A stretch of 64,000 bases of DNA from Sulfurihydrogenibium sp. YO3AOP1 (GTDB taxonomy: Bacteria; Aquificota; Aquificia; Aquificales; Hydrogenothermaceae). The stretch covers positions 248,001-312,000 of the forward strand of contig NC_010730.1 of the NCBI RefSeq assembly GCF_000020325.1, given 5' to 3'. The notes under the pieces are model-generated. The model was not told where the DNA came from and ran no database searches. It saw only the letters and a list, made by a program, of their open reading frames with translations. The stretch's first letter is position 1; every line of letters starts with the position of its first letter. This document shows, piece by piece, positions 4,603 to 27,960 of this stretch. Both the position numbers and the translations under genes were made by a program.

Positions 4603-4630
4603 TTATTAGAATTTTCCAAAAATCAACATC

Positions 4631-26693: not shown

Positions 26694-26739
26694 TCTAAAA
26701 TTTTGTGTTTAATTTATGCAAGTTTTTATAGTTTGCCAT

Positions 26740-26879
26740 ACATATACGTCGGGTTAAAAATTCAATAAAAGTTGGAGATTCTTCGCTTCGCTCAGAATGA
26801 CAGACAAGGATGTCCTTCCTCTAATCTTATCAATCAACCTTTTCCTGTCATCCTGAAGACTTTAGTCTAAAGGATCTCC
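26740..26879. repeat. Inside-out composite repeat, copy 8
   Basis: Half-module GGAGATTCTTCGCTTCGCTC (26774-26803), then a linker (ACAAGGATGTCCTTCC...TATCAATC), then half-module CTGTCATCCTGAAGACTT (26845-26879). Relative to a normal copy the halves point outward, so this is the junction between two tandem units, as between copies 3 and 4. An outer ATACGTCGGGTTAAAAATTC lies just before it. The rest of the 427-base gap up to 27,121 shows nothing beyond the leader and ribosome site of the next gene. Confidence 0.8.
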
Positions 26880-27120
26880 TTATCCAAATTTTGTAAAAAT
26901 CCATGCTTTCTCACCAAAAGCATTTTAACATATTTTTTATTTGTTCAGGATAGCAAAAATAAAACTTCCAAATAAAAAGTGATTTTGAGCAAGCGAGTAA
27001 TCCCAGAATAAAACTTTTTCAAATCTATACTTCCAATACTTCTTTTCACTAATACAATATGTCAGAAAATGGAAAATTTTTCGTTTATAGTATTAGAAAA
27101 AATTTGCAGGAGGGTTTCTT

Positions 27121-27918
27121 ATGAAAAAAATCTTCTTATCAGCTTTAGCAGTTGCTACAGTCTCTAGCTTTGCATTTGCAGGAGATGAAACGAAAGTACA
27201 GTAAAACAAGCTACCTATCGTAAAATGCTCTCAGCCTGTAATGACCGTTGCTTTAGGTTCTGTTGATTGCAAAGCTCAAGCTTGTGAAGCTCCAGCTGAC
27301 CCTAAACAAAACATGCTTGCAGCTATTTTTGGTGGAAGTGCTAATGTGCAAGGAATTGGAAAAGGACTTGGGAACATGTTAATTACCGCCCTTAAAGAAA
27401 GTGGATGTTTTAAAGTTATTGACTTAGACCAATTCGAACAAGTCAAGAAAAAATTAGAAGCAACAGGACAAAAAGTTCAACCTCCAAAAATTGATAAGTT
27501 TATAAACTTAACTATTACTCAAATTGCTTTATCAAGAAGCTCTGGTGCATTAGGTGGTGGTCTTATACCCATAATTGGTGCAATTAAAAAAGATACCCAA
27601 TCTGCAGAAGTTGGCATAGATGTAGCTTTAATGGACCCTGTTACATTAGAGATTAGTGAAGCTAAAAGCTTTAAAGCTAACTCTGAAAAAACATCATGGG
27701 GACTCTTTGGTGCTGGTGGAGTTGGTGGCTTCGGTGGTGGCGGTGGATGGAGCTGGTCGAATAATTTAGCATTGGATACTGTTGCAAGAGAGGTTATTGT
27801 TGAAGCTACAAACTATTTAGCAGAAACCTATGCTAAAGATAAAATCATAGAAAGACCAGTTATAGCTAAAGAAAACGAAAAAAAGGATGAAAAAAAGGAA
27901 GAGAATAAAACTTGGTAA
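27121..27918 (+). pseudogene. CsgG/HfaB-like secreted protein interrupted by an in-frame TAA
   Basis: A strong AGGAGG site precedes ATG 27121 and a clean signal peptide (MKKIFLSALAVATVSSFAFA). The frame then meets TAA at 27202-27204, but the same frame continues for 226 codons from 27241. The remainder resembles CsgG family outer-membrane secretion/anchoring proteins: GIGKGLGNMLITALKESGCF, VIDLDQFEQVKKKLEATGQK, VGIDVALMDPVTLEI, a glycine-rich loop, and a charged lysine/glutamate tail. One substitution would restore a single 265-residue gene. The ATG at 27241 has no ribosome site and would lack a signal peptide. Possible explanations are a nonsense mutation, a sequencing error or stop readthrough. 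No other curli or adhesin genes lie nearby. Confidence 0.75.
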
Positions 27919-27928
27919 TACATCAAAA

Positions 27929-27960
27929 GGAGGTAGTTACTCTCCTACCTCCACCTCTTT
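27929..27960 (+). terminator. Terminator after the CsgG-like gene
   Basis: GGAGGTAG (27929-27936) pairs perfectly with CTACCTCC (27945-27952) over an 8-nt loop, followed by ACCTCTTTTT. The 3' arm and loop overlap the last codons and stop of the convergent DUF167 gene, so the same DNA serves both. Confidence 0.7.

Follow-up and report, generated by a model that had tools for sequence, protein, structure and literature searches.

Bacterial pseudogenes created by a single nonsense mutation share three traits: one in-frame stop, an intact orthologue in a relative, and conservation of the remaining gene. A study of two insect endosymbionts reports that pseudogene transcripts can still be detected, that many of them are ribosome-bound in one of the two, and that relatively few pseudogenes yield detectable protein (PMC13345370).

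The gene analysed here belongs to the CsgG family (PF03783), which comprises the outer-membrane secretion channel of curli and its relatives. CsgG of E. coli carries a lipidated cysteine at its cleavage site, although a lipoprotein cysteine is not taken here as defining for the Pfam family. A literature search yielded no paper joining CsgG with PEGA and lipoprotein. Among the matches listed for Sulfurihydrogenibium with curli or CsgG, the subject is surface display in E. coli; for CsgG with Aquificae, it is outer-membrane pore families. In the available part of the main text of PMC3879981, the words pseudogene and curli do not occur.

Results

The window is a stretch of 64,000 nucleotides from the hot-spring bacterium Sulfurihydrogenibium sp. 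YO3AOP1. Translation bears out the original prediction of a signal peptide and seven further codons, a TAA at 27202 and continuation of the same frame. On the plus strand, the frame 27121-27918 is interrupted at codon 28 by an in-frame TAA (27202-27204). The part before the stop begins at ATG 27121 and encodes 27 residues (MKKIFLSALAVATVSSFAFAGDETKVQ), which by eye resemble a signal peptide followed by 7 residues. After the stop the frame stays open for 237 codons, to a terminal TAA at 27916-27918. A chance frame is ruled out by G002, the nearest relative to have the gene, where a single intact frame covers all 265 residues at 94% identity; the window frame is thus one gene. (G000 denotes the genome of the window; other G numbers denote genomes of the same order, Aquificales.) The features are collected in Table 1.

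Table 1. Features of the interrupted gene and its surroundings (window coordinates).
Feature	Position	Strand	Basis and remarks
Dispersed repeat element, ~181 bases	26741..26921		Present in G000 and G005, absent at the site in G002
Ribosome-binding site AGGAGGG	27108..27114	+	6 bases 5' of ATG 27121; sequence; leader aligned with G002 and G005
Upstream fragment, ATG to TAA 27202-27204, 27 codons, signal-peptide-like	27121..27204	+	Translation; sense codon in the G002 orthologue
Remainder of the same frame, 237 codons and stop, CsgG-family domain	27205..27918	+	Translation, Pfam, G002 comparison
Longest ATG-started ORF past the stop, 225 aa, without signal peptide or invariant Cys36	27241..27918	+	ORF list, alignment
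Terminator-like hairpin, then T-rich tail	27929..27952	+	Consensus scan

The regulatory parts had been described as looking intact. The terminator-like hairpin is close to the shuffled expectation (2 terminator-like sites, one place on both strands, against a shuffle mean of 1.2 in the consensus scan). Promoter-like sites show no excess in the same scan (4, against 4.4 in shuffles). With both classes near their shuffled expectation, the ribosome site is the main support for intact regulatory parts.

Between 26600 and 28000, a search for repeats returned short imperfect pairs only. The 21-base core of the dispersed repeat upstream has 40 exact occurrences in the genome and 0 in a reversed-pattern control; within the window it is also found at 4630, 9428 and 9561 (minus strand). 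In G002, a stretch 71% identical to the repeat lies elsewhere on the same contig.

Orthologues were sought in 112 genomes of the order with the 265-residue G002 protein as query (E <= 1e-25). The search returned 18 rows in 16 of the 112 genomes, G000 included. Two rows from G058 represent one gene, leaving 17 gene copies: 14 that are full-length and open; one cut by a contig end (G086), kept outside the full-length count and the alignment; one frameshifted (G058), kept outside the alignment; and the window copy with its TAA. Within the genus, the gene is found in 2 of 7 genomes (G000 and G002); the five without it include the drafts G001 (89% complete) and G005 (82% complete). A more permissive search (E <= 0.001) finds matches in 24 of 61 relatives, many in frames of ~250-600 codons. 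These distant CsgG relatives, which include a 491-codon frame at 32% identity in a genome of the genus (G006), are kept out of the orthologue count. A pattern search of the genome contigs gave 92 matching stretches, none of which encodes a relative by tblastn.

Two of these genomes show peculiarities of their own. In G058, which belongs to another family of the order, the CsgG-like gene is frameshifted in a glycine-rich stretch (L121 1856-1935, G058:C7), either a real change or a draft error. G098 (70% complete) holds two full-length CsgG-like copies on two contigs (L110, L122), which may reflect a duplication or a mixed draft.

A sense codon one substitution away had been expected in orthologues at the position of the stop, and this is what the alignment contains. 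At codon 28, G002 reads CAG CAA AAC where the window reads CAG TAA AAC, a glutamine codon one transition away. Glu occupies the position in 12 of the other 13 full-length copies and Gln in the remaining one, and the premature stop is missing from the orthologues aligned. An orthologue beginning at the internal ATG, which would have spoken against an interrupted gene, was looked for and not seen: all 14 full-length homologues have an in-frame upstream N-terminus, and the internal ATG is rejected as the true start.

The frame is otherwise conserved, with no second lesion besides the TAA at codon 28. Past the stop, G000 and G002 differ by 29 synonymous and 12 non-synonymous changes over 237 codons (dS 0.21, dN 0.022, ratio 0.10). 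Four genes nearby, one of which was compared in part, have values of 0 (without any non-synonymous change), 0.05, 0.06 and 0.125 between the same two genomes; the post-stop ratio is not clearly above these and gives no sign of relaxed selection. For the 27 pre-stop codons the ratio is 0.15, calculated from few sites. Judged by these substitution counts, the rest of the frame is under purifying selection. Eleven residues differ after the stop. Four were judged polarisable by outgroups, with 38 and 152 changed in G000 and 153 and 202 in G002; the other 7 of the 11 (95, 148, 174, 201, 220, 252 and 265) were left unpolarised.

Had the G000 branch been neutral throughout, ~61-65 non-synonymous differences would be expected, against the 12 observed. 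A crude model, in which dS is halved between the branches and counts are taken as Poisson, fits a neutral fraction of 0-13% of the G000 branch; its upper bound varies with the baseline ratio, from 14 to 26%. Together, the fit and the deficit of differences suggest that the stop is young, or not real. With purifying selection past the stop and no other break, the stop, if real, would have arisen late on the G000 branch.

The ORF that starts at ATG 27241 matches Pfam CsgG at 55.8 bits (cut-off 20.8), covering profile positions 34-203 of 210, and a whole-genome search found no other CsgG match in the 1,838,442 bases. The only NCBIfam match is weak (13.7 bits, cut-off 279) and concerns an unrelated family, the CsgG family profile matched no solved structure in the PDB at E <= 0.01, and a single-sequence model of the read-through protein has a mean pLDDT of 33, unusable for fold. 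The significant Pfam match and the signal-peptide-like N-terminus are shared with the CsgG family. In contrast to E. coli CsgG, the first 27 residues, by reading, contain no cysteine and hence no lipobox. In contrast to the curli (type VIII) secretion system, the genome contains no match to CsgE or CsgF at E <= 0.001, where both searches were positive in an E. coli control. With neither these partners nor a lipobox cysteine, the gene is not classed as curli secretion. Going by family and signal peptide, the product of the unbroken gene is most likely a small, exported cell-envelope protein of the CsgG family.

The site of this gene is occupied by a different one in G005, a fragmented draft of the same genus (2% contaminated). 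Its neighbouring genes are ~96% identical to those of the window over the long stretches aligned on either side, and identity in the leader (26700-27120) is 87%. Homology continues past the ribosome site into the first coding bases, as far as 27131, and resumes at 27922. The product of the intervening gene (window site 27131-27922; L051, G005:C171) resembles a lipoprotein, is 142 residues long and contains a PEGA domain (29 bits against a cut-off of 20.8). Relatives of this protein are found in 6 of 61 genomes, including G047 of another family (80% identical) and G006 of the same genus (53%). The G006 copy adjoins the same downstream neighbours as the window site, but a different upstream gene.

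G000, G002 and G005 are nearly equidistant. Upstream of the gene, informative sites group G000+G002 at 42, G000+G005 at 52 and G002+G005 at 39; downstream, the respective counts are 46, 26 and 31. Alignment bins touching the gene (27100 and 27700) are excluded from the left and right sums. The grouping shifts mildly between the flanks (Fisher p 0.018, uncorrected, for G000+G002 against G000+G005).

Discussion

The structure of the frame and its comparison with orthologues probably reflect a recent nonsense mutation in a dispensable, patchily kept CsgG-like gene, making this a young nonsense pseudogene. The proposed course of events involves: a single C-to-T transition converting the Gln codon at position 28 to TAA; initiation of translation at the intact ribosome site; and termination after the signal peptide and 7 residues. 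Such termination would leave no mature exported protein, apart perhaps from traces. The change would be recent and the gene dispensable. This account takes the base to be correct, glutamine to be ancestral, a functional protein to be absent and its loss to be tolerated.

Consistent with this proposal, the gene has a patchy distribution (found in 16 of the 112 genomes searched in the order and in 2 of 7 in the genus), it is frameshifted in G058, and another gene occupies the site in G005. Counting against it, the frame, the ribosome site and the rest of the coding sequence are all retained, which would equally be expected of a base error or of tolerated read-through, and the post-stop ratio is not clearly above that of the neighbouring genes. 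The case is ordinary in kind: it shares with single-nonsense bacterial pseudogenes the one in-frame stop, the intact orthologue and the conserved remainder, and there is no difference in kind between them. The original prediction had left the break as recent, an error or suppressed; a recent break fits best, an error is a rival, and suppression finds no support.

A sequencing or finishing error would imply a sense codon in the living strain, and a normal protein. One base would account for everything, in a frame otherwise under purifying selection and free of a second lesion. PMC2613243 lists the genome among the completed JGI genomes of 2008. Even a low residual error rate would be expected to leave some false stops per genome. 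Against this, any one gene of a finished genome rarely carries an isolated substitution error, and homopolymer-run errors, the frequent kind, are indels, whereas the TAA site is a substitution. The frameshift in G058, which may itself be erroneous, and the different gene at the G005 site make loss of the gene plausible in itself. We consider a base error unlikely.

Restart at ATG 27241, which lies in frame 36 bases past the stop, would have to give a functional 225-residue protein. No Shine-Dalgarno-like run is present between the stop and this ATG, and the product would be devoid of the signal peptide and of Cys36, one of four cysteines (C36, C50, C55 and C96) that are invariant in a five-sequence alignment. 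None of the 14 full-length homologues starts at this position, and G002 alone among them has a Met there. A restart product would probably be misplaced and inactive, making functional restart very improbable.

For suppression, the TAA would have to be decoded at useful efficiency so that the full protein is made. The intact, constrained frame after the stop agrees with this, but the constraint is equally explained by the recency of the stop. Scoring 150 of 189 first-look candidates with RF00005 gave 36 tRNA-family matches in the genome, and ARAGORN assigned no anticodon reading UAA, UAG or UGA at the 36 loci covering them; where taa, tag or tga is written as an anticodon, the tRNA is one for Leu or Ser and decodes sense codons. 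The genome also carries two release-factor genes (RF1 and RF2 not told apart). A codon-usage scan of the window, requiring at least 20 codons before and at least 60 after a stop with a positive codon score on both sides, and so missing smaller splits, gave nine same-frame ORF pairs. By translation the other eight are ordinary neighbouring genes, which we take to be secY, adk and ribosomal protein genes among others, and 27121-27918 is thus the only split gene in the scan; several of the eight terminate with TAA, which further disfavours suppression. Useful read-through is likewise very improbable, and a recoded genome is rejected, with no stop-reading tRNA at the 36 loci, two release-factor genes and no second split gene in the scan.

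A nonsense pseudogene thus remains our preferred reading of the gene itself. The site in which it lies varies within the genus, either because one gene replaced the other or because an older tandem lost different members: G000 and G002 hold the CsgG-like gene, and G005 the gene for the PEGA-domain lipoprotein. A further, rather unlikely reading is that the site is an exchangeable expression slot, in which alternative exported-protein genes, swapped by recombination, share one leader (ribosome site plus ATGAAAAAAAT start) and one 3' flank. If this is true, the stop in G000 would add another silent allele to such a slot.

A young nonsense pseudogene would mean that one base removes an exported protein while all else in the gene looks functional. 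Automatic annotation could misplace the start of the gene at the internal ATG. That sister genomes place two unrelated exported-protein genes behind one start region is a more curious lead than the stop.
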